DNA of 64,000 nucleotides from Cytobacillus gottheilii (GTDB lineage: Bacteria; Bacillota; Bacilli; Bacillales; Cytobacillaceae): assembly GCF_900166665.1 (NCBI RefSeq), contig NZ_LT800494.1:3632708-3696707 (forward strand), in the 5' to 3' direction. Positions 39,538 to 52,343 of the stretch are shown piece by piece. Under the pieces are notes generated by a model that was not told the DNA's origin, did no database searches, and saw only the letters and a list, made by a program, of their open reading frames with translations. Position numbers and translations under genes: made by a program. Position 1 is the stretch's first letter; each line of letters begins with the position of its first letter.

Positions 39538-40371
39538 TTATGCCCTTTTCATACGGCCTAATCTTACCTGGCGCAGTATATATTTGAACAATGTCGTTGC
39601 AGCAAAGATGATCATTAAAATTAAGGTAATGGAAGCACCAGGCGGGGTACCTAATTCATAGGAAGCGACCAATCCGCTCAGCATGCCGGCAAGGGCGATA
39701 ACCATTCCTAAAAAAATGACCCCCATGAAGCTTTTGCTTAGCCGCAGTGAGATGGCCGCGGGCAAAATGATGATGGCCGAGACCAGCAAAGCTCCGACGA
39801 TCGGCATGATAATCGCGATCGTAACTCCTGTTAGCACATTAAACAATATGGACATCAGTTTAATAGGCAAACCAGCAGTAAAAGCTGTTTCCTCGTCAAA
39901 CGTAAGAATGTACATAGGCTTTCGAAAAATAAAATAAAGGACACCAATAATAGCTGTTAAGGCGATTAACATCCAGATTTGCTGTTCACTAATGGTCACG
40001 ATGGAACCAAATAAAAACTGTGTCATGCTCAGTGTTGCTCCACCATCGTTTAACCCCATTAAGACCAATGCCAGAGCCATTCCAGCAGACATTAATATCG
40101 CAACTGAAATTTCTGAATAGGTCCGGTACATTTGCCGTAAAAATTCTAATAAAATAGCAATAACAGCCACTACTAAAATATTGGTCCATGTAGGATTCAC
40201 ACCCATTAACAGACCAAGTGCCACACCCGCTAAAGAGATATGTGATAGAGTGTCCGCCATAAGCGATTGTCTGCGGAGAATCAAAAACAACCCTAATATG
40301 GGGGCAATGAGAGAAATTAGGATGGAAGCTTGGAAAGCTCTTTGCATGAATCCATAGAGAAACATCTCCAA
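39538..40371 (-). CDS. znuB: Zinc ABC transporter permease
   Basis: This 277-residue membrane protein belongs to the ABC-3 permease family (ZnuB/AdcB/TroC). It has about eight helices and the motif LILRRQSLMADTLSHISLAGVALG (near 27-50) used to contact the ATPase. The preferred start is TTG at 40371 (GGAGG seven bases upstream); an ATG lies two codons later. It overlaps znuC by 55 bases, and with znuA defines a zinc uptake system. Confidence 0.9.
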   Translation of the reverse strand: MEMFLYGFMQRAFQASILISLIAPILGLFLILRRQSLMADTLSHISLAGVALGLLMGVNPTWTNILVVAVIAILLEFLRQMYRTYSEISVAILMSAGMALALVLMGLNDGGATLSMTQFLFGSIVTISEQQIWMLIALTAIIGVLYFIFRKPMYILTFDEETAFTAGLPIKLMSILFNVLTGVTIAIIMPIVGALLVSAIIILPAAISLRLSKSFMGVIFLGMVIALAGMLSGLVASYELGTPPGASITLILMIIFAATTLFKYILRQVRLGRMKRA

Positions 40372-41030
40372 GGCGAGCCCTCCTTCCGCAATAACTCAAT
40401 ATGCTTATTAGCGTAATGGCGAATTTCTTCATGATCATGTGTAACCATTAGAATCCCCTTGCCATGCTCTAGGCAATTGTGTCTTAATAATTGATAAAAT
40501 TCTTCTCGGGAATGAACATCCATACCCGTAGTGGGTTCATCCAGAATAAATAGATCAGGGTCAGTTGCGAACACACGCGCAATAGAAATCCGCTGCTTTT
40601 GCCCGCCTGACAATTCCCCTATCTTTTTATGGCGCATGTCCCACATTCCAACAGATTCTAAAGAACGGCGAACATGCTCTTTGTCTGCTTGATCGAGTCG
40701 TTTAAACCATTTGCCTCTTTGATACCGTCCGGATTGAACCAGTTCCAGAACGGTACTCGGAAAACCAGCATTAAAAGAGGCAATCTGCTGTGATACATAA
40801 CCAACTACCAGCTTCTCACCGTATTGATTTTTCTTTGAAAGCTGAACCCTTCCTTTTGATGGTTTTAATAGACCCAAAATATTTCGTAAAAGCGTCGTCT
40901 TCGCTGCACCGTTTTCTCCCGTCAGCATCACAAAATCTTTTGGACCTACCACAAAAGAGATATTCTCTAATACAGGTTCTTCTTTATAATGAAAGGCGAG
41001 GTTTTCTACTTCAATATAATGCACAATCAT
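40317..41030 (-). CDS. znuC: Zinc ABC transporter ATP-binding protein
   Basis: This 237-residue ATPase has Walker A GENGAAKTT (Ala replaces the usual Gly/Ser-type residue within GENGAGKT), the Q-loop, the signature LSGGQKQRISIARV, Walker B DLFILDEPTTGMD and a switch His in MVTHDHEE. It is the partner of ZnuB. No Zur box was seen directly upstream, so it is probably transcribed from the znuA promoter through a stretch of 52-bp repeats. Confidence 0.92.
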   Translation of the reverse strand: MIVHYIEVENLAFHYKEEPVLENISFVVGPKDFVMLTGENGAAKTTLLRNILGLLKPSKGRVQLSKKNQYGEKLVVGYVSQQIASFNAGFPSTVLELVQSGRYQRGKWFKRLDQADKEHVRRSLESVGMWDMRHKKIGELSGGQKQRISIARVFATDPDLFILDEPTTGMDVHSREEFYQLLRHNCLEHGKGILMVTHDHEEIRHYANKHIELLRKEGSPWRCFSMDSCKELSKLPS

Positions 41031-41147
41031 GCGACCTTTCTTTTATGGGATTCTAGTATATTTATATTTTGACTGAGGAGGAATATGACAAATTAGGGTA
41101 GTGGTGTAACTCCCCGACTTTGGGGAGTTACTAGGGTTCGGCTGTTA

Positions 41148-41350
41148 TTAACTACCCAACTTTCGGTTTTCATGTTACTTCGGGCGTTTAAATTCCTGGT
41201 TAACTACCCATCTTACGACTTTCACCCGACTTCGGGCGTTTAAATCCTCGGTTAACTACCCATCTTACGACTTTCACCTGACTTCGAGCGTTTAAATCCT
41301 CGGTTAACTACCCATACCCCGGAATCCACTGGCCTTCAAGCGTTAGCCAG
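41148..41350. repeat. 52-bp tandem repeat, about 3.8 copies, between znuC and znuA
   Basis: Units start at 41148, 41200, 41252 and 41304, each beginning TTAACTACCC. The second and third are nearly identical; the first differs in the middle and the fourth decays after its first part. The core reads CTTCGGGCGTTTAAATCC. It is non-coding on both strands. Confidence 0.85.
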
Positions 41351-41371
41351 AATCCACGCCACCCTGCTCAA

Positions 41372-43042
41372 TTACTGAACACTCAGCTGCAAAGATTCCA
41401 GGTTTTCCCGCATTGCTTCAATATATCCTAAATCATTTTCTTCCAATTCTTTTGACAGTACTTCTAAATCAAATAATGTAGCTGTCTCTGTTCCTGTTTC
41501 GGCTGCAACTGTTTCAGCAATGCTTGAGTTGGCACCCTGCTGATAGTAGATGATTGGCACTTTATGTTCTTTTACTAAGTCTCCAATCTCTGCTATACGG
41601 GAAGGACTTGGTTCCACTTCTGTTGATAAGCCGCCAATGGCAATCTGTTCTAAATCATATCGGTCTGCTAAGTAGCCAAAAGCTTGATGCTGTACGACAA
41701 ACACACGTTTTTTTGCATCTTCTAAAGCACCTTCGTAGTCCTCATGCAATTCCTGCAATTCATTATTAAAAGCATCTGTATTTTTTTCATAGACTTCTTT
41801 TCCATCTGGATCTGCTTCGATAAGTGCATCACGGATGATTTTCACTTGCTCTTGTGCTAAAACAGGATCGAGCCAAATATGGGGATCCTTATTTTCATGA
41901 TCGTCGATTAAAACGGAAACTGTTTCTGATTCGGCATACGTATTATGATCATCATCAAGCAGGACTGCTTTTACGTCAAAGCTTTCTCCTGTATTTTTAT
42001 ATTCAAAATGATCGGTTTCCTGGCCAGAAATAGCTTCCCATTCCTCATTTTCTCCTGAGCGTGTGTACCAATGCCAATGCTGATAGTCCGTCTCAGCTTG
42101 CAGTTGGGCAACAAGGGTTACAACATCACCCGTATGATAGTGGTCTGCTAATCCAATGATCTCTACTGACTGTGCACCTTCTGCACTTTCATGTTCATGA
42201 TCGTGATTTGTTTCCTCGTCTTCACCATGACTGTGATCATGCCCAGCTTCATCACCATGCTCATGACTATGTTCTTGCCCCGCCTCATCACTATGATCAT
42301 GATTATGACCTTGCTCTTCATCGCTATGCTCATGGCCTTCTTCTTCACCGTGAGCAGGTGTTTCACCATGGTTATCAATGACAATTTTTACAGGCTCAGA
42401 CTCTGCAAGCTCTCTATGATTATCATCAAATAAGACAGCGCGTACTTCGAAATTGTCAATGGATGCTAAATATTCAAGCTCAGAGGAGAATTCATTTGGT
42501 ATTGCTACCCACTCCTCATCAGCACTTTTTCTCGTATACCAGTGCCAATGTTCAAACTCTGCACCATTATCTGTTACTGCACTTAATTTGATCATATCAC
42601 CAGTATGGTAATGTTCAGCAGCACCTTGAATTTCAATGTTTACAGGTTCTTGTTCCTCACCACCACTATGTTCATGGCTATGGGCTGATTCAACACCATC
42701 AGCTGTACGCGCAACAACTAATTTATCATTCTCAGTCGTCTCTATTAAGCTTTCAGCCCAATGTTCCATCTCTTCACTGCTATAGACAAAGACATCTGCT
42801 TCATTTACCCTTGCAACATCTTTAGCACTTGGCTCATAATGATGTGCATCTTCACCGGCAGATACCATTAGAGAGACATCTGCTCGATCTCCTGCTACTT
42901 GACGGGCAAATTCATACATCGGATAAAAGGAAGTGACAACAGATAACTTACCCTCCGTATTTTCTTCACTGTTTTCATCTGAATTTTGACAGCCATATAA
43001 AATAGTAGACATGACTAGCACCAAACCAAACCATTTTTTCAT
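41372..43042 (-). CDS. znuA: ZnuA-type zinc-binding lipoprotein with two HWHWY repeat domains
   Basis: This 556-residue lipoprotein (lipobox ending Cys18) is a cluster A-I substrate-binding protein for zinc. The N-terminal half has ASGED-like metal His in SAGEDAHHYEPSAKDV and the C-terminal half has DPHIWLDPV (near 383) and a terminal EVLS block. Between them, where ZnuA normally has a His loop, lie two copies of a domain of about 90 residues (near 134-226 and 290-380) with HYHTGD at the start and HWHWYTR in the middle, joined by a His/Glu-rich linker (about 227-289). The same domain occurs in the ZinT gene next door. A Zur box lies upstream. Confidence 0.9.
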   Translation of the reverse strand: MKKWFGLVLVMSTILYGCQNSDENSEENTEGKLSVVTSFYPMYEFARQVAGDRADVSLMVSAGEDAHHYEPSAKDVARVNEADVFVYSSEEMEHWAESLIETTENDKLVVARTADGVESAHSHEHSGGEEQEPVNIEIQGAAEHYHTGDMIKLSAVTDNGAEFEHWHWYTRKSADEEWVAIPNEFSSELEYLASIDNFEVRAVLFDDNHRELAESEPVKIVIDNHGETPAHGEEEGHEHSDEEQGHNHDHSDEAGQEHSHEHGDEAGHDHSHGEDEETNHDHEHESAEGAQSVEIIGLADHYHTGDVVTLVAQLQAETDYQHWHWYTRSGENEEWEAISGQETDHFEYKNTGESFDVKAVLLDDDHNTYAESETVSVLIDDHENKDPHIWLDPVLAQEQVKIIRDALIEADPDGKEVYEKNTDAFNNELQELHEDYEGALEDAKKRVFVVQHQAFGYLADRYDLEQIAIGGLSTEVEPSPSRIAEIGDLVKEHKVPIIYYQQGANSSIAETVAAETGTETATLFDLEVLSKELEENDLGYIEAMRENLESLQLSVQ

Positions 43043-43066
43043 TTCCTCTTTCCCTCCAACTGCATA

Positions 43067-43087
43067 AAAACGTAATAATTACGATTT
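43067..43087. promoter_or_regulatory. Zur box upstream of znuA
   Basis: CGTAATAATTACG (43071-43083) is a palindrome flanked by A/T tracts, as in Bacillus Zur sites. It lies 28 bases upstream of the znuA start. Confidence 0.85.
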
Positions 43088-43150
43088 AATGTCTAGAATT
43101 CTCCTTATTTCAACAAATTTCTATGGTGTACTCTCTTTTATCTTATAAAA

Positions 43151-44140
43151 TTAATGTGCTAACATGTCACGCACTAGACCGTCAGCATCCAAGTCGGAAG
43201 GATAGTAGGTTGGCCAATGATCCATTTCCTCTAATAGCTCTGCACGGTCATCTCCCCAATATAAATGGTAATGATGGGATTCAACCGGGAATATATTATG
43301 ATCGCTAAATTGGATAAATTGAGGCATATTTTCGGCGCCATCTGTTAATTTAAAGATAAATCGTACTCCTCTGTTCCCTTTTTCATACTGAAGAATTTCA
43401 TAGCCGTCTGACTCATATGTTCCAGAATTCTCTTGACCATTCTCATAAAAAGTGACGACGTTATCTTCAATCGTGATGGTGTCAACATCGGTTACATATC
43501 CTGTTGTGTAATACTCTTTGTATTCCTCTGCCGTCATATCTCCATGTTCAGCTTTATGTTCAAAAACAACATCTAAATCTCCAGATTCAAGATATGGATA
43601 TACAGACTGCCAATCACCTTCCCAATCTGACAATGGGCGATCCTTTACTTGCTCATCTTCAAAATAACCATTATAGATTTGTTTGCTCGCTTCATCGTTT
43701 CCGTGATGATCATCAATTACGATTGTTACAGGAGCTGATTGTGCGCTTGGATTATGGTCATCATCTAGCAAAACGGCTTTAACTTCTAATCCATTAATCT
43801 CTGCTTCAGCCGTAAATACATCTGATTCCTGTCCTTCAATACTTTCCCATTCAGCATCAGCTGATTCTCTGCTATACCAGTGCCAGTGATCATATTCCGT
43901 TTCTCCATCCTGGACAGCCGTTAACTTAATTTCATCACCAGTATGATAATGATCACCAAGGCCTTCTATTTTTACAGTTTCAGGTGCATTTTGTTGATTC
44001 GTTTCTTCATCATGTTGATGTTCCTCTTCTTCATGTACCTCTGCTTCTGTTTCCTCTGTTCCATTAACCTGGTCATTCGATCCTTGGCATGCTGCTAAAA
44101 ATAGACTTAGGAACAGCAAACTAAATAATAGTTTCCTCAT
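43151..44140 (-). CDS. zinT: ZinT-like zinc lipoprotein with an N-terminal HWHWY domain
   Basis: This 329-residue lipoprotein (lipobox LAAC, Cys18) has an acidic His-containing region, one HWHWY repeat (about 52-147, with HYHTGD and HWHWYSRESADAEW) and a ZinT domain (about 150-329, with QSVYPYLESGDLD, EYYTTGYVTDVDTI and HYHLYWGD). ZinT domains bind zinc under starvation and pass it to ZnuA. The ATG at 44140 has GAGAGG upstream. A Zur box precedes the gene. In streptococcal AdcA the ZinT and ZnuA parts are fused; here they are separate but share the repeat. Confidence 0.9.
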   Translation of the reverse strand: MRKLLFSLLFLSLFLAACQGSNDQVNGTEETEAEVHEEEEHQHDEETNQQNAPETVKIEGLGDHYHTGDEIKLTAVQDGETEYDHWHWYSRESADAEWESIEGQESDVFTAEAEINGLEVKAVLLDDDHNPSAQSAPVTIVIDDHHGNDEASKQIYNGYFEDEQVKDRPLSDWEGDWQSVYPYLESGDLDVVFEHKAEHGDMTAEEYKEYYTTGYVTDVDTITIEDNVVTFYENGQENSGTYESDGYEILQYEKGNRGVRFIFKLTDGAENMPQFIQFSDHNIFPVESHHYHLYWGDDRAELLEEMDHWPTYYPSDLDADGLVRDMLAH

Positions 44141-44173
44141 CTTTCCCTCTCCCCATCTCATATGTATTTAAAT

Positions 44174-45495: not shown

Positions 45496-45539
45496 AAAAA
45501 CCCCGGAACATATCGGGAGGCCGATATTTGTTCCGGGAT
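45496..45539 (-). terminator. Terminator after the HesB-like gene
   Basis: Minus-strand stem TCCCGGAACAAATATCGG with CCGATATGTTCCGGGG, followed by TTTTTATT. Confidence 0.85.
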
Positions 45540-45580: not shown

Positions 45581-45868
45581 TTAAAGGTTAATAACTTTAA
45601 ATTGCCCGCCTCCAAAAAATCCTTTAACATAATCAATTTTGACATTATTAAAATACACTTGATCTCTGTCATTCACTAAAAATTGAATGTCATTTACTTC
45701 TGTTATTTCATCATTCTCTAAAGCTGACTCTTCCAGAGCCAGACGAAGCTGTGGACCCCCTCAGCCAATGCCCATTGATAACCGAATCATCGGCTTTTTA
45801 TCTTCATCAATTAGGTTTTGTATTTCTGTTGTGATTGCTGATATAGCTGCTGGTGTCACTTTTACCAT
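45581..45868 (-). CDS. HesB/IscA-like protein with in-frame TGA (candidate selenoprotein)
   Basis: A frame of 95 codons starts at 45868 behind AAGGAGG and reads MVKVTPAAISAITTEIQNLI, then MIRLSMGIG, TGA at codon 36 (45763-45761), and continues as GGPQLRLALEESALEN to KIDYVKGFFGGGQFKVI and a stop at 45581. In HesB-like proteins this position is a Cys in a GCGGP motif, so TGA replaces a Cys codon. A hairpin lies at the right distance for a bacterial SECIS. The reading on both sides of the TGA is coding and family-like, which argues against random decay. No selenocysteine machinery gene is in the window. If not read through, it would be a pseudogene. Confidence 0.85.
45733..45754 (-). promoter_or_regulatory. 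SECIS-like hairpin after the TGA of the HesB-like gene
   Basis: Minus-strand stem CCACAGC with GCTCTGG (one C-C mismatch) encloses the loop TTCGTCTG; the loop's GTC begins about 17 bases after the TGA, similar to fdhF-type SECIS. It is within the coding frame. Confidence 0.6.
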
Positions 45869-45909
45869 GAATAATTCCTCCTTAATATCTTTTTACAGAT
45901 GATTATTGA

Positions 45910-46347
45910 TCAGTTTTGTACAGTAACTTTTCCTTCAATATCAATTTGTGCATTTGCTGCTTTTAGCAGGTTTCCAACTGCACATGCTTTATCAGCTGAT
46001 ACAAATGTTCTTTGTGCTGCCTGAACCTGTTCTTCTGTTGCTTCAGCAGACATTGTAATATGAGGGTAATGAGTTATTTTTAATCCTTCTTCTTTTGAAA
46101 GAGATGATTCTGAATCCACTGTTAACCCAGAGACTGGCAGCTTTCTAGCTTCAAGCATCGCCACCAAAGTCAACGTAAAACATGATGCTGCAGAACTTAT
46201 TAGTAACTCTTTTGGTCCTGCGCCCTCTCCACTGCCGCCTAAAGATTCAGGTATTGCCACGTTTGTTTCAAGATTACCTGCTTTTAAACTTCCATTTCCT
46301 TTACTGTCACCATTCCAAACAATTTTTAAGTTAGCTGTATCTGCCAT
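45910..46347 (-). CDS. OsmC family protein
   Basis: This 145-residue peroxiredoxin-like protein has the two OsmC Cys residues, one in ISSAASCFTLTLVAML (near 58) and one in ADKACAVGNLLKAA (near 124), and the N-terminal Arg/Glu region. OsmC proteins reduce organic peroxides. The ATG at 46347 has AGGAG nine bases upstream. It lies 41 bases upstream of the HesB-like gene in the same direction and is probably in its operon. Confidence 0.88.
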   Translation of the reverse strand: MADTANLKIVWNGDSKGNGSLKAGNLETNVAIPESLGGSGEGAGPKELLISSAASCFTLTLVAMLEARKLPVSGLTVDSESSLSKEEGLKITHYPHITMSAEATEEQVQAAQRTFVSADKACAVGNLLKAANAQIDIEGKVTVQN

Positions 46348-47370: not shown

Positions 47371-47604
47371 TTATTTAAGGGCAGCCATGATTTTCTCCGG
47401 AGCAAAGCCAAAAACCCATACTCCATTTATATTAGTCTGCGGAACAGAGAATCTGCGAGTTTTCGCTACTAGTTTTAGCATCGCCAACGGATTTATATCG
47501 ACATTAACCTCTTTATATTCCATATTCATATGTGTTAAAAACTCCCTAACCATGGCACATACCGGGCACATGGCAGTTGTGTAAATGGTTATATCCTGAT
47601 TCAT
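47371..47604 (-). CDS. Glutaredoxin-like protein
   Basis: This 77-residue thioredoxin-fold protein has the redox motif AMCPVCAMV near 11-19 (CPVC) and a cis-Pro in FSVPQTNING. The length and fold are those of glutaredoxin-like proteins in bacilli. It is the last gene of a minus-strand group of three rhodanese genes, which suggests a link to persulfide metabolism. Confidence 0.85.
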   Translation of the reverse strand: MNQDITIYTTAMCPVCAMVREFLTHMNMEYKEVNVDINPLAMLKLVAKTRRFSVPQTNINGVWVFGFAPEKIMAALK

Positions 47605-47631
47605 TCAGCATAGCCTCTATTTCTTAGATTT

Positions 47632-47931
47632 TCACTCCGTTATTCCATTCCAATTATTCATGCCGCCTGCCATGTCCTCGACCTTATAACCTAATGCTTC
47701 CATTATTCCACAAGCTGCTTTGCTGCGGTTGCCTGATTGACAAGTAACAATATAATTTTTTTCCTTATCCAGTTCCGCCTTGCGCAATACAAGCTGGCCT
47801 AACGGGATATTTTTTGCTCCTGGAATTAAACCAGCTGCTGCTTCACTCTTTTCTCGAACATCAATAATATTCACTGCTTCACCATTCTGAATCCTTTTCG
47901 CTACTTCTTCAGGTGTTACTTGTTTTGCCAT
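47632..47931 (-). CDS. Rhodanese-like sulfurtransferase
   Basis: This 99-residue single-domain rhodanese has the active-site loop CQSGNRSKAA with Cys near 65. It starts MAKQVTPEEVAKRIQNGEAV. It shares a gap of 15 bases with the preceding rhodanese gene and is part of the CstR-type sulfur operon. It should transfer sulfane sulfur. Confidence 0.88.
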   Translation of the reverse strand: MAKQVTPEEVAKRIQNGEAVNIIDVREKSEAAAGLIPGAKNIPLGQLVLRKAELDKEKNYIVTCQSGNRSKAACGIMEALGYKVEDMAGGMNNWNGITE

Positions 47932-47946
47932 AACTATTTTCCTTTC

Positions 47947-48306
47947 CTACATCCAGGCACTCATTCCGCCTTTAACGTTGTAAATCTGATGAAAGCCATG
48001 TTTCTTAAGAGTTTTCGCTGCCTTAGCACTTCTCATTCCGCTTTGACATATGACAACAATCTCTTTTTCCTTATCCAGCTTATCTATTTGACTGGATAAG
48101 TTAGACAGCGGAATGTTATGAAATGGCTTGCGATGGTTTGATTTATATTCACCAGGTGTACGAACATCAATAAATTGTATCCCTTTTTCCTTAAATTTAG
48201 CTTTAGCCTCTTGAACACTTATATTCTTGACGCCTTTTACAGGCATAAAACGACTAACGAGAAACGCAAAAACAATGAACAACAGCATCCATTCAATGAT
48301 CCCCAT
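47947..48306 (-). CDS. Membrane-anchored rhodanese
   Basis: This 119-residue protein has an N-terminal transmembrane segment (MLLFIVFAFLVSRF) and a rhodanese domain with the loop CQSGMRSAKA (Cys near 90). The catalytic side faces the cytoplasm or periplasm depending on the helix orientation. Part of the sulfur operon. Confidence 0.87.
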   Translation of the reverse strand: MGIIEWMLLFIVFAFLVSRFMPVKGVKNISVQEAKAKFKEKGIQFIDVRTPGEYKSNHRKPFHNIPLSNLSSQIDKLDKEKEIVVICQSGMRSAKAAKTLKKHGFHQIYNVKGGMSAWM

Positions 48307-48352
48307 ATGATCACTCCTATTTTGTAAATTTGACTGGAAGAGAAAAAGAGAT

Positions 48353-48649
48353 CTACTCTATTTCTCCTTCCCACTCCAGCATGCCGCCTGCGATATTTGT
48401 TACATTAAAACCATTTTGAATGAGAAATTGACATGCTTTGCTGCTTCTCCCGCCTGAACGGCATACGATGTAGTAGTGCTCCTGTTTAACTAATTCAGCT
48501 ATTCGAGCTGAAATCTGACCGAGAGGGATATGCTTTGCTCCCGGGATTATCCCCATTGCGACTTCTTCGTCTTCTCTAACATCGACAATATTTACTATTT
48601 CTCCTGTATTCTGTTTCAGTTCTAATTCTTTTGCAGTAATTTCTTTCAT
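48353..48649 (-). CDS. Rhodanese-like sulfurtransferase
   Basis: This 98-residue single-domain rhodanese has the loop CRSGGRSSKA (Cys near 64) and ends EWEGEIE. It starts 32 bases below a perfect CstR-type palindrome (48681-48698), so it is the first gene of the rhodanese group. Confidence 0.87.
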   Translation of the reverse strand: MKEITAKELELKQNTGEIVNIVDVREDEEVAMGIIPGAKHIPLGQISARIAELVKQEHYYIVCRSGGRSSKACQFLIQNGFNVTNIAGGMLEWEGEIE

Positions 48650-48680
48650 ATATAGCCCTCCGTTTCAAAACGCACAACCA

Positions 48681-48698
48681 TATACCCAATTGGGTATA
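48681..48698. promoter_or_regulatory. CstR operator palindrome
   Basis: TATACCCAATTGGGTATA, a perfect palindrome. It is the promoter region of the rhodanese group and downstream of cstR. Confidence 0.85.
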
Positions 48699-48715
48699 TT
48701 TTATTCTAAAAAAAC

Positions 48716-48976
48716 TCATCTGCTTTTCACTAATAAATCAACTGCTTCTTTTACCACTTGTTTTGTGCTTTGGCCATTTTCTATATTTTCCCGAACACAT
48801 TGCTCTAAGTTCGAGCTTACAATTAAGCCGATGGTACGATCAATCGCACTGCGCGAAGCTGATAACTGAGTTATCACTTCTTTACAATCTTGGTTCTTCT
48901 CAATCATACTTAATGCGCCTTTAATCTGTCCTTCAATTCGTTTTAAGCGATTGACAACCGCTTTATCATACTCCAT
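48716..48976 (-). CDS. cstR: Persulfide-sensing repressor CstR
   Basis: This 86-residue helical protein belongs to the CsoR/RcnR family. It has Cys31 in QDCKEV and Cys60 in LEQCVRE and no His at the copper-ligand position of CsoR, the pattern of CstR, which senses reactive sulfur. It binds the palindromes found around this cluster. It lies between the rhodanese group and the TauE-TusA group, in the same direction. Confidence 0.92.
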   Translation of the reverse strand: MEYDKAVVNRLKRIEGQIKGALSMIEKNQDCKEVITQLSASRSAIDRTIGLIVSSNLEQCVRENIENGQSTKQVVKEAVDLLVKSR

Positions 48977-49048
48977 TTACCATCTCTCCTGTACCTTGCA
49001 CGGTCTGTTATTTATTCATTCAATAGCCACTTAGAGCTCAGACCGCTT

Positions 49049-49828
49049 TTACACTAAAATATCAAACCAAATTTTCACTGCTGTTCCTGCAATCATAAGT
49101 GCCAAAAGCATTTGCAGGATTTTCGTATTTATATTTTTGCCAGCCTTTGCGCCAAACGGAGCAGCTAACAGGCTTGCTGCAATCATAATGATTGCAGGCC
49201 AATAATCTACTTGGCCGGTAACGAGTTTCCCTATACTGCCGCCTATTGAAGATATAAACGTAACGGCGAGACTTGTTGCAATTGTCATTCGTGTTGGAAT
49301 GTGCAGAAGTGTCAGCATGATCGGCACAAGCAGGAATCCTCCTGCAGCACCAACAATTCCAGATGCTATTCCAACGATTAGTGCTAAAATGGCTGCAAGT
49401 CCCTTATTAAATGTCACTTCATTTAGCGGCACATCATCTGCCTGCTTTTTAGGCATCATCATCATAACAGCTGCAATGACAGCAAGAATTCCATATACAA
49501 TGTTCACTGTCTGCTCTGATAAATAGCTGGATCCAAAACTGCCGATTAGGCTGCCGATCAGAATGGATACGCCCATATAGATAATGAGCTGCTTATTTAA
49601 ATATCCGCCTTTCCGATATGCCCAGACTCCGGCAATCGAAGCAAACAGCACTTGTACGGCACTTATGCCTGAAACCTCATGAGCTGTAAAAGCTGTAAGG
49701 CCGAATAATGGCGGAATATACAATAACATTGGATATTTAATGATTGAACCGCCAACACCTAACATACCGGATAAAAAAGAACCAATAAATCCAATAGCAA
49801 ATACCACGATGAAAAATATTATGTCCAT
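49049..49828 (-). CDS. TauE/SafE family sulfite/organosulfonate exporter
   Basis: This 259-residue membrane protein has about eight helices with the family motif GMLGVGGSIIKYPMLL and a second repeat GIVGAAGGFLLVPIML. It is encoded in the CstR regulon in several Firmicutes, where it is thought to export sulfite or thiosulfate. It follows tusA in the operon. Confidence 0.9.
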   Translation of the reverse strand: MDIIFFIVVFAIGFIGSFLSGMLGVGGSIIKYPMLLYIPPLFGLTAFTAHEVSGISAVQVLFASIAGVWAYRKGGYLNKQLIIYMGVSILIGSLIGSFGSSYLSEQTVNIVYGILAVIAAVMMMMPKKQADDVPLNEVTFNKGLAAILALIVGIASGIVGAAGGFLLVPIMLTLLHIPTRMTIATSLAVTFISSIGGSIGKLVTGQVDYWPAIIMIAASLLAAPFGAKAGKNINTKILQMLLALMIAGTAVKIWFDILV

Positions 49829-49851
49829 GATTCCGCCTTCTTTCCAGTATA

Positions 49852-49879
49852 GAAAAGCGAGCGATGATCCCTGCTCGCT
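49852..49879 (-). terminator. Hairpin between tusA and tauE
   Basis: Minus-strand stem AGCGAGC with GCTCGCT, then TTTC; it may reduce readthrough into tauE. Confidence 0.4.
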
Positions 49880-49891
49880 ATTTGATTTTCA

Positions 49892-50119
49892 TCATGCTTT
49901 TTGTATATAAAAATATAGAATGTCTTCCTCTGTTTTTTGTTCTAAAATGATATGACCGCCTGATTTTGCCCAAGCTGGAATATCGCTCAGTGCGCCTTTA
50001 TCCGTTGTCAGTACTTCGAGGATTTCCCCGGAATGAATAGTGTCCATTGCCTTTTTTGTTTTAACGATCGGCATGGGACATGCAAAACCTTTTGCATCTA
50101 ATGTTTTGGTAATGTTCAT
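49892..50119 (-). CDS. tusA: Sulfurtransferase TusA
   Basis: This 75-residue protein has the TusA motif GFACPMPIVKTKKAM with Cys near 14 and the IPAWAKSGGH helix. It carries sulfane sulfur to other enzymes. It follows the persulfide dioxygenase gene by 51 bases in the operon. Confidence 0.92.
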   Translation of the reverse strand: MNITKTLDAKGFACPMPIVKTKKAMDTIHSGEILEVLTTDKGALSDIPAWAKSGGHIILEQKTEEDILYFYIQKA

Positions 50120-50170
50120 GTGAATAGCCCCTTTTTTTTGCTTTTTTTTGGATCAGCTCCCGTTTTTTGC

Positions 50171-51301
50171 CTAGCGAACTGCACAGCGGTTCGGTCCAAT
50201 TTCCATTTCGGTTTGTTCATCATGGTCAGGATTCATTTTCCCCATATTGACTTGACGAATTTGCTCGTACGCATTGGGCTGCGGAGGCAAATGATCTGTA
50301 ACCGTACGGCGGAATTCCGCTTCGTCTTCAATGTTTAGACCATGGTTTTCTTTCAATAGATCACCTAAGCGTCTTGCTACCGACCCATCTTCATTTAATT
50401 CATCAATGATCATGAAATGCGCAGGCAATACAATCAGGTCCTCAGCAAGCTCTCGGTAACGGGAGTATAATGTTTCACGCAGATCTCCAACCCAATCTTC
50501 TGCAAGTCCCGCTAAGTCTGGACGGCCGATTGAGTCGATAAAGAGGATATCCCCTGTCAGCAAAAACTTATTATGGTCAATCACAAATGAAGTGGAGCCG
50601 ATCGTATGGCCAGGTGAATATAGTGCACTTACGTTTATTTGTGATGAACCGATTTTCACGTTTAGATCATTGGTTAATGGTGTATATTCAAATACTGCTT
50701 CTGCAGCATCTTCCTGAGGCAGATAATAAACTGCACCTGTTTCAGCAGCAATATGTCTTCCTCCTGAAATATGGTCCGCATGCAGGTGTGTATCAAACAC
50801 ATGCTTAATTTTTACACCTTTTTCTTTTGCGAAATTGATAAACACATCTGTAAATCGTACTGCGTCAAAAATGGCAGCTTCTCCTTCTGAAATGAGCATA
50901 TAAGAAAGACAGCCTTTTCCTAAACGAACAAATTGATATAGCTCTCCGCCATTTTCTAAATCCGCTGCTTTTATAGGCTCTAAATAGCTGCTCCAGGATT
51001 TCATTCCGCCTTCAAGGTAAGCAACTTCCTTGCCTGCTTCAGACAGCATTTCTGCTACCATCACAGAAGACCCCTCTTTTGCACATACAACTAAAATTTC
51101 TTTATCCTCTGGCAGTTTTGGCAGAATTTCTTCCACTCCATCCAGTAAATCAAAATAGGGAATATTTAAATATTCGAACTGATGGCCTTCAATTTTCCAA
51201 TCTCCAAATGCATCCTCATTACGAACATCTAAAATAAACAGTTCTTCTTTATCAATTACTTTTCGGGCAACTTTTGCTGCACTCCATTTGTTTACAGTCA
51301 T
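50171..51301 (-). CDS. cstB: Persulfide dioxygenase-rhodanese fusion (CstB-like)
   Basis: This 376-residue protein has an N-terminal rhodanese domain (about 1-105, loop VVCAKEGSS) and a C-terminal MBL-fold persulfide dioxygenase domain with HxHxDH in [11 protein letters not shown], then [11 protein letters not shown] and [16 protein letters not shown]. It should oxidise persulfides to sulfite or thiosulfate. S. aureus CstB, as I recall it, is longer and has the rhodanese at the other end, so the domain order differs. It is the core gene of the sulfur operon. Confidence 0.88.
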
Positions 51302-51308
51302 TTCTTAA

Positions 51309-51325
51309 TTACCCCCATAGGTATA
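51309..51325. promoter_or_regulatory. CstR-type operator upstream of cstB
   Basis: ATACCTATGGGGGTAA on the minus strand, directly upstream of cstB. Confidence 0.65.
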
Positions 51326-51383
51326 TTATTGGTTATTTTTTTGCAGCGGAGGATACCCCGCTGCATGAAGTTAGTTCAGCAGA

Positions 51384-51779
51384 TTAAAAAGATAATGTTG
51401 GTGCTGCATCTTTAGCAAATTCCAAGAATGTTACAGCTCCGCCAACCTCAATACCATCAATAAAATCTTCTTTTACAAGACCCATAACATCCATCGTCAT
51501 TTGGCATGCAATCAGTTTAACGCCAATATCTTGTGCCATTTCCACTAGCTCTGGAATGGACGGGACATTAGCTTTTTTAAACCCTTCTGCAAAATGCTCT
51601 TTTCCAGCTGGCATTTCTAAAGCAAACATTGCTTGTTTGTGAATTAAGTTTAGACCTTCAAACGTGAAGAAGATTTCTACCTCTTTTTCAGACGCAGCTG
51701 CTGCTGTTGCGATATTAAATACCTTGTATGCATCAAACATTCCACCGTTTGCTGCGATAATAGCTACTTTATTTGACAT
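51384..51779 (-). CDS. DsrE/DsrF-like protein
   Basis: This 131-residue protein is a DsrE-like protein (MSNKVAIIAANGGMFDAYKVF, KLIACQMTMDVMG). The Cys near 94 is a likely sulfur carrier. It lies in the sulfur operon between the TusA-rhodanese fusion gene and cstB and probably takes part in persulfide relay. Confidence 0.87.
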   Translation of the reverse strand: MSNKVAIIAANGGMFDAYKVFNIATAAAASEKEVEIFFTFEGLNLIHKQAMFALEMPAGKEHFAEGFKKANVPSIPELVEMAQDIGVKLIACQMTMDVMGLVKEDFIDGIEVGGAVTFLEFAKDAAPTLSF

Positions 51780-51791
51780 ATTAAATTCCTC

Positions 51792-52343
51792 CTAAATTTC
51801 TTTTGTTAGACTGCCGTTCCACTCATTCATACCAGGCAGAACATTATAAACTTTTGTAAAACCGTTTTTCGCTAATAGCTGTGCTGCCAAGTCAGAACGT
51901 TTCCCTGTACGGCAAATCACATAAATTTCTTCATTCTTATCTAATTCCCCGAGACGTGATTCCAGCTCACCCATTGGAATGGATTTGGCATCATCAATAT
52001 GGCCAAATGCATATTCAGCTGCCTCACGCACGTCTAGAATCAACCCCCCTCGGGTATCTAATTCTTCCAGTGCAACAGTTTGCTCAAAAGCCTTTTCCAC
52101 TTCTGGTTCATTGTTGCCCTTTCGAATATAGTGGTAAAGAAGATCGCCATCTTCTACTGTTCCGATATACTGATGTCCAACAGAATTAGCCCATGCAGCA
52201 AGATCTGCTTTTGAACCTTTGTCTGTTGCTAAAACTTCCAGTACTTGACCTTCTTCAAGTGCGGTCATGGCTTTTTTGGTTTTTACAACCGGCATAGGAC
52301 ACGCTAACCCTTTTGCATCCAGCTGTACATTTGCTTGGATCAT
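51792..52343 (-). CDS. cstA: TusA-rhodanese fusion protein (CstA-like)
   Basis: This 183-residue protein joins a TusA domain (about 1-75, with GLACPMPVVKTKKAM and Cys near 15) to a rhodanese domain (about 85-183, loop CRTGKRSDLAA). This is CstA-like. It is the first gene of the operon. Three CstR-type palindromes lie upstream. Confidence 0.88.
   Translation of the reverse strand: MIQANVQLDAKGLACPMPVVKTKKAMTALEEGQVLEVLATDKGSKADLAAWANSVGHQYIGTVEDGDLLYHYIRKGNNEPEVEKAFEQTVALEELDTRGGLILDVREAAEYAFGHIDDAKSIPMGELESRLGELDKNEEIYVICRTGKRSDLAAQLLAKNGFTKVYNVLPGMNEWNGSLTKEI

Follow-up and report, generated by a model that had tools for sequence, protein, structure and literature searches.

A putative HesB/IscA-like selenoprotein of Bacillaceae, cysteine-free in most members, and its sulfane-sulfur gene neighbourhood

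A-type Fe-S carriers contain three ligand cysteines, two of which belong to a C-terminal CGC motif. HesB-like selenoproteins are an established family, and the accessible parts of two papers count 11 such proteins (PMC1794560) and 90 in 86 organisms (PMC5029168). The HesB-like protein of M. maripaludis was found by mutagenesis and 75Se labelling, and its function is called not clear (PMC11097638); the available parts of PMC11097638 and PMC13188914 assign no clear function to HesB-like selenoproteins in general. Sulfane-sulfur genes form the second point of comparison. In B. licheniformis, YrkD senses sulfane sulfur, and the MBL-rhodanese encoded there is considered a hypothetical PDO, according to the accessible part of PMC9918477.

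Here, we report the analysis of a HesB/IscA-like gene with an in-frame UGA that lies in the window, i.e., the whole 64,000-nucleotide stretch of Cytobacillus gottheilii DNA that was analysed. The gene very probably encodes a selenoprotein, and its recurrent neighbours are sulfane-sulfur genes.

The interrupted frame and the reading of its UGA

The preliminary description had proposed a 95-codon HesB/IscA-like frame with TGA at codon 36 and had left the strand unstated. Such a frame was located on the minus strand (the translation of the plus strand contains several stops); it opens with an ATG at 45868, is interrupted solely by the TGA at 45763-45761 and ends with the TAA at 45583-45581. The AAGGAGG said to precede the ATG is indeed there, 8 nt away, and what had been taken for a terminator after the gene is a terminator-like hairpin with a T run at 45518-45501 (Table 1). 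The protein reads MVKVT...RLSMGIG-U-GGPQLRLALEESALENDE...GFFGGGQFKVINL, with FGGGQF as its C-terminus, and the proposed HesB/IscA-like identity agrees with a match to PF01521 (Fe-S_biosyn) of 32 bits, above the cut-off of 26.3.

Table 1. Features of the selenoprotein locus and its surroundings in the window.
Feature	Coordinates	Strand	Remarks
Predicted HesB/IscA-like selenoprotein CDS	45584..45868	-	95 codons, UGA = codon 36, no Cys codon; TAA stop 45581-45583
Predicted Sec36 codon UGA in motif GIG-U-GGP	45761..45763	-	TGA in 69/70 related loci; tRNA-Sec, selA, selB and selD in genome
Predicted bacterial SECIS	45724..45742	-	8-bp stem CUGGCUCU/AGAGUCAG, GGA triloop 45734-45732; 26 nt after UGA
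RBS AAGGAGG	45877..45883	-	8 nt 5' of ATG; read from sequence
Terminator-like hairpin with T run, 3' of gene	45501..45518	-	1 found; shuffles mean 0.6
OsmC-like gene directly upstream	45910..46347	-	Pfam OsmC 49.9 bits; neighbour rarely conserved
Glutaredoxin-like gene	47371..47604	-	relative immediately upstream of selenoprotein gene in closest named relative, L072 (C. gottheilii)
Three small rhodanese-like genes, sulfane-sulfur cluster	47632..48649	-	
PF02583 repressor, CstR/YrkD-like by context	48716..48976	-	
TauE, small TusA-like, MBL-rhodanese (persulfide-dioxygenase-like), DsrE and TusA-rhodanese genes	49049..52343	-	

A search of the genome for selA, selB, selC and selD had been named as a check on the reading of the UGA as selenocysteine (Sec), and all four are present. 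In this genome of 4.78 Mb (four contigs), tRNA-Sec, SelA, SelB and SelD each score above the curated or Rfam cut-off: the tRNA-Sec, with the anticodon UCA, reaches 57.1 bits and passes the Rfam cut-off, and selA, selB and selD reach 563, 374 and 404 bits, respectively. The selD gene (L018; C4:2435041-2435967 of the same genome, plus strand) holds an in-frame TGA of its own (AG-U-GCK). The gene adjoining that of the tRNA-Sec (selC), at L001:216-1301 on the minus strand, resembles by eye a bacterial nitric-oxide-synthase oxygenase. The co-occurrence of tRNA-Sec, SelA, SelB and SelD in one genome is that expected of a bacterial selenoprotein gene, and the predicted UGA-encoded Sec in a UxGP motif at the conserved Cys position is that of a HesB-like selenoprotein. 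It is exceedingly improbable that a general code change or a natural suppressor causes the UGA to be read as some other residue; no point in support of such a reading was found, several predicted long genes of the same genome terminate at TGA, and a tRNA-Sec with a UCA anticodon is present together with SelB.

The TGA is conserved across genomes. At the family level, 147 of 193 genomes gave a match at E <= 1e-8. Among the 150 matches listed (counted by hand), 148 have exactly one TGA, one of them with a TAA as well, and two are C-terminal fragments; in 13 of the 147 matching genomes the match was too weak for listing and its TGA was not read. Additionally, patterns omitting the Sec column were run over 84,980 species genomes and yielded 70 loci, and the aligned codon is TGA in 69 of them although the patterns left this column out; the 70th, from Streptomyces (L141), is a spurious match. 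The conservation of the TGA in 148 of the 150 matches listed and in 69 of 70 loci excludes chance, and since the identical TGA is found again in other genomes, the sequencing error at 45761-45763 that had been considered earlier can be dismissed. The named hosts include Cytobacillus, Neobacillus, Schinkia, Robertmurraya, Aquibacillus, Halalkalibacter and Salinibacillus, and five loci are deltaproteobacterial. In the deltaproteobacterial L136, L137, L139 and L140, the C-terminal Cys precedes another in-frame TGA (SCSG-UGA-G), which may be a stop or a second Sec, and L138 ends at a TAA instead.

In an order-level sample, a match at E of 1e-10 was found in 53 of 397 genomes. The 63 matches listed at this level comprise 58 with exactly one TGA, one decayed copy with several stops and four without TGA. 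The last four were considered as close Cys forms and rejected: those of G318 and G257 are SufA-like, G364:C33 is a Cys protein of only 33% identity, and that of G454 is the downstream part of a frame-broken copy. As the TGA-less matches are SufA-like, distant or broken, no close full-length Cys orthologue was found among the 63 order-level matches listed and the 70 loci.

The occurrence of a HesB match is associated with that of selA, which scores above the cut-off in 172 of the 193 family genomes. When both groups of HesB matches are pooled, a match is present in 144 of the 172 selA genomes versus 3 of the 21 others (Fisher p = 2.4e-10, hand tally), and 28 of the 172 have none. Group A, the window's own group, shows 56-99% identity and comprises 49 matches in 47 family genomes (counted by hand among the matches listed); taken alone, it occurs in 44 of 172 versus 3 of 21 genomes, a comparison that proves nothing by itself. 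The genome also encodes a HesB-like paralogue (C4:2415463-2415750, minus strand; L059:10464-10751), 38% identical and with one in-frame TGA, which shares the core of the GGA-loop hairpin and adds a bulged U. It scores below the NCBIfam cut-offs of all four models matched, and its relatives are widespread in the family.

That the UGA is a true stop, leaving a pseudogene or a 35-residue peptide, is highly improbable. The retention of the gene in two Sec-minus genomes would fit a stop, as would the broken copies known from G454, G046 and G452 and a fragment in G158. However, the downstream half, for which decay had been considered, is conserved: alignment A1 (43 sequences) has 22 invariant columns, 16 of them after the UGA, purifying selection acts there (pN/pS 0.26 over codons 51-94 versus 0.31 before the UGA), almost every locus read has a frame that continues past the UGA and ends at nearly the same point, and the silent sites of a hairpin in this part are frozen. 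A stop is thus largely refuted by the conservation seen downstream in Sec-competent genomes. Those checks named in the preliminary description that were run came out in favour of Sec, and we put the probability that Sec is inserted at codon 36 of this HesB-like protein, as judged from sequence, at about 0.95.

The AlphaFold2 model, based on 41 sequences, consists of one confident domain (pLDDT 93.0, pTM 0.83) with residue 36 in a turn between two long strands. Its best Foldseek match is IscA (1x0g), with AQ_1857, HI1723, SufA, YneR and DsrR as further matches; the model, its best match and the 32 bits to PF01521 assign the protein to the A-type (HesB/IscA) fold. Scores lie under the cut-offs of both NCBIfam Sec-HesB models, TIGR01911 (26.2 bits versus 66.35) and NF038090 (41.6 versus 85), which suggests that the protein is related to the modelled families and falls outside them. 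For NF038090, the best E-value over the 43 members of A1 is 1.7e-11, which we judge to be well under the cut-off, with a bit score for one member only.

Sec36 occupies the position of the first conserved Cys of A-type carriers, and the set of three ligand cysteines of an A-type Fe-S carrier is absent. No Cys at all was found in 55 of 57 group A proteins (L072-L129 without L120); more distant relatives from Bacillota, e.g., L130 and L132-L135, end in Cys. With the C-terminal CGC cysteines gone, Sec would be the sole chalcogenol. The protein might still be a Sec version of a true Fe-S (or Fe) A-type carrier whose iron is ligated by Sec36, perhaps with one Sec per tetramer subunit, as suggested by the A-type fold, by IscA and SufA among the nearest structures and by Sec at the first-ligand Cys position. 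We regard this as unlikely: both C-terminal ligand cysteines are missing, with 55 of 57 members having no Cys whatsoever, the genome has a separate Cys-bearing SufA-like protein with a CGCG motif (L143), and the neighbour clusters that could be named are sulfur-relay genes, no suf or isc being recognised among those, which are only part of all clusters.

A predicted SECIS hairpin

Bacterial SECIS elements (bSECIS) have been modelled with a 3-9 nt loop, a 4-16 bp stem, a G in the first two loop positions, a spacing of 16-37 nt and an MFE <= -7.5 (accessible part of PMC13188914). The preliminary description had pointed to a hairpin with a GTC loop, beginning about 17 bases after the TGA; the conserved element is instead a GGA-loop hairpin at 45742-45724. 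Codons 43-50 fold as CUGRCUCU-GGA-RGAGUCRG, and the 3-nt GGA loop, 8 bp, 26 nt and sub-element MFE of -9.9 kcal/mol of this predicted hairpin fall within the bSECIS model.

The silent sites of these codons are strongly constrained. Over codons 43-50, synonymous identity is 0.863, versus a permuted mean of 0.372 and a maximum of 0.419 in 300 permutations (53 sequences). Codons were permuted within each protein, and the 53 sequences were obtained from the window and L072-L129 by leaving out four that have a deletion and two that are near-duplicates. CTG is frozen in 53 of 53 sequences at codons 43 and 45, as is GAG at codon 47 (53 of 53), and at codon 50 all 50 Leu codons are TTA. Other stretches show synonymous identities of 0.50 to 0.58, also above their own permuted means (0.31 to 0.50).

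In alignment A3 (50 of 69 sequences), 99.2% of cells are paired, versus at most 54.0% when the pairing is slid by 1-3 columns; of seven pairs checked, all are kept in 62 of the 69 sequences and six in the other 7. No two-sided (compensatory) change of the stem was found within the subfamily (A3), so that the subfamily structure rests on silent-site constraint and one-sided changes, and the 48-nt stretch does not surpass its shuffles in folding energy (z = 0.24). The nearest four-pair version of the GTC-loop hairpin has 80.9% of cells paired, and among 47 distinct sequences 25 break one of its pairs and 10 break another; it was rejected because of these broken pairs and the 80.9% versus 99.2% for the GGA-loop hairpin.

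The paralogue has the core CUCU-GGA-RGAG in 21 of 21 loci read, mostly with a bulged U below, and one of its loci (L167) displays a two-sided change from CUG/CAG to CUU/AAG. For four of the 21 loci, minimum-energy folding predicts a structure other than this hairpin. The core shared with the paralogue provides independent support for the predicted SECIS.

Gene neighbourhood and probable plasmid spread

An OsmC gene had been noted beside the selenoprotein gene and taken as a hint of a redox role. It does adjoin the gene upstream, on the same strand, but it is near in only 2 of 58 other loci, and OsmC was therefore rejected as a general partner; the recurrent partner is a sulfane-sulfur gene cluster. 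The selenoprotein gene is likewise next to these OsmC and GntR ORF clusters in L073 and L094, two loci showing no sulfur gene within 4.5 kb. In the window, the sulfur cluster (47371-52343) is separated from the selenoprotein gene by an opposite-strand GntR gene and OsmC. CstR-like, TusA, DsrE, rhodanese, persulfide-dioxygenase-like and TauE genes lie close by one another there, which makes it a cluster of the yrk/cst kind; for the small TusA-like gene (49892-50119), the name comes from visual inspection and from an annotated relative in plasmid pBO1. Elsewhere in the window (39538-44161, minus strand), genes for an ABC permease and an ATPase stand beside two His-rich HWHWY-motif proteins, and by ORF inspection this group looks like zinc or manganese uptake.

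Of 58 group A loci, 30 have a CstB-like, TauE or DsrE gene no more than 7 kb away, and 28 show none of these three sulfur markers; for the 48 loci whose 7-kb flanks are complete, the numbers are 26 and 22. The same 7-kb test on the paralogue gave 0 of 20 loci, picked by hand from the listed family matches. The commonest one-strand orders are rhodanese(s)-MBL-rhodanese-TusA-TauE-[HesB-U] and TauE-DsrE-DsrE-[HesB-U], with gene names given by inspection. As to further neighbours, 19 of 65 loci have a glutaredoxin-like cluster and 22 have a membrane/thioredoxin-like one, the latter named by eye.

These neighbours bear on another possible role of Sec36, that of a catalytic selenol reducing peroxides or disulfides as an antioxidant, with only an indirect coupling to the sulfur genes. 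The OsmC gene adjoining in the window and the glutaredoxin-like and membrane/thioredoxin-like clusters point in this direction, as does the expectation of redox functions for most uncharacterised selenoproteins expressed in the accessible part of a 2026 review (PMC13188914). Nevertheless, the protein has no resolving Cys and no UxxC or CxxU motif, and the rarity of OsmC at the other loci argues against it, so that we find an antioxidant role somewhat doubtful.

Two genomes, G171 and G175, carry the UGA gene (L052, L053) with no tRNA-Sec, SelA or SelB over the cut-off. Their locus is 99.98-99.99% identical to the Cytobacillus oceanisediminis plasmid pBO1 over 13.7 and 11 kb (for G171, the comparison used L125, judged by its length to be the same contig), and this near-identity makes a recent transfer likely; the cluster appears to have moved recently into hosts unable to read UGA as Sec. 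G171, G175 and L125 thereby offer a natural test of the fate of a stranded selenoprotein gene. A further group A genome without selA over the cut-off, G179, is 81% complete and has a tRNA-Sec and a piece of SelB.

The expectation that ordinary gene callers may miss the gene was supported by pBO1, whose annotation has 22 features over the stretch and a 319-nt gap at the selenoprotein gene, between two annotated genes of the run. In the four plasmid records found, no annotated feature lies under the match, the gene table being incomplete by its own description. Since the gene is absent from plasmid annotations, a family model together with the SECIS could improve the annotation of many genomes. 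No match to the gene was obtained in phage records. As regards copy number, G158 (L057, 4436-9102, minus strand) has three copies within 5 kb, two intact with UGA and one a fragment from codon 43. Broken copies are L058 (G046), L173 (G454) and L177 (G452), and an intact copy exists elsewhere in G046 and G452.

Possible function and comparison with known systems

In the mechanism that we propose, the GGA-loop SECIS, 26 nt past the UGA, would direct SelB to deliver Sec-tRNA(Sec) at codon 36; the use of the GGA hairpin by SelB is what we infer here. Translation would then continue past codon 36 to the TAA, giving a 95-residue A-type (HesB/IscA-fold) selenoprotein. The selenol of Sec36 would take sulfane sulfur (Se-S) from a TusA/DsrE/rhodanese relay and would either pass the sulfur on or yield sulfide to a glutaredoxin- or thioredoxin-like reductant, and such uptake and transfer may buffer reactive sulfur. 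The single selenol, the lack of a resolving thiol and of cluster ligands, and the sulfane-sulfur genes near by together favour a sulfur carrier/transferase, and we infer a one-selenol sulfane-sulfur carrier or reductase rather than a classical Fe-S carrier. The sulfur-carrier role as such, which draws on linkage and lost cysteines only, is in our estimate a little short of an even chance. More tentative is the fuller picture of a Cys-free A-type protein whose single Sec carries sulfane sulfur as a selenopersulfide, together with a Bacillaceae persulfide-detoxification cluster that is partly plasmid-borne. If true, it would mean a selenium-dependent sulfur-relay role for the IscA fold without a known close Cys counterpart.

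A subfamily that lacks Cys and whose genes often close a sulfane-sulfur cluster of a known kind provides a direct, testable hypothesis on function. It is also a lineage for which no close Cys form was found, in a family where 172 of 193 species genomes have a selA above the cut-off. For the most part, these bacilli are aerobic or facultative. Aerobic bacteria seldom retain selenoproteins, according to the accessible part of the 2026 review (PMC13188914). Our literature searches found no report linking a selenoprotein with Neobacillus, or selenoproteins and selenocysteine with Bacillaceae, and no HesB selenoprotein in a sulfane-sulfur cluster in the accessible parts of the sources; recent selenoprotein papers may already cover the subfamily. 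As far as the literature was searched, what is new is the subfamily of Cys-free Bacillaceae proteins, together with its predicted SECIS and its association with sulfane-sulfur genes; no priority is claimed.

The IscA/SufA/ErpA carriers (PF01521) resemble the protein in fold (Foldseek 1x0g, 1r94, 2d2a) and in the position of the active residue, whereas the subfamily lacks the C-terminal Cys pair, in 55 of 57 members any Cys, and has a UGA-coded Sec. DsrR of Allochromatium vinosum (2k4z) and YneR of B. subtilis (9a4q) share the A-type fold by Foldseek. DsrR is part of a sulfur-oxidation operon and is without Fe-S cysteines, and to our knowledge neither DsrR nor YneR is known as a selenoprotein.

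The described HesB-like selenoproteins (TIGR01911; Geobacter, Desulfovibrio, Methanococcus and others) belong to the same fold family and carry Sec where the first conserved Cys would stand, and the UxGP motif is common to both (accessible part of PMC13188914). They differ from the window's subfamily in that the latter occurs in Bacillaceae, with about half of its loci near sulfane-sulfur genes, and in that the deltaproteobacterial relatives L136-L140 have a C-terminal Cys, unlike 55 of the 57 group A members. The yrkD-yrkJ/cst clusters of B. licheniformis and S. aureus contain genes of the same kinds, for a CstR-like repressor, DsrE, rhodanese, TusA, MBL-rhodanese and TauE (PMC9918477, accessible part). 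The 11-gene cluster of B. licheniformis, as given in that part of PMC9918477, has no HesB gene, whereas the loci described here include a selenoprotein gene as well, in many cases immediately after tauE or a second dsrE.
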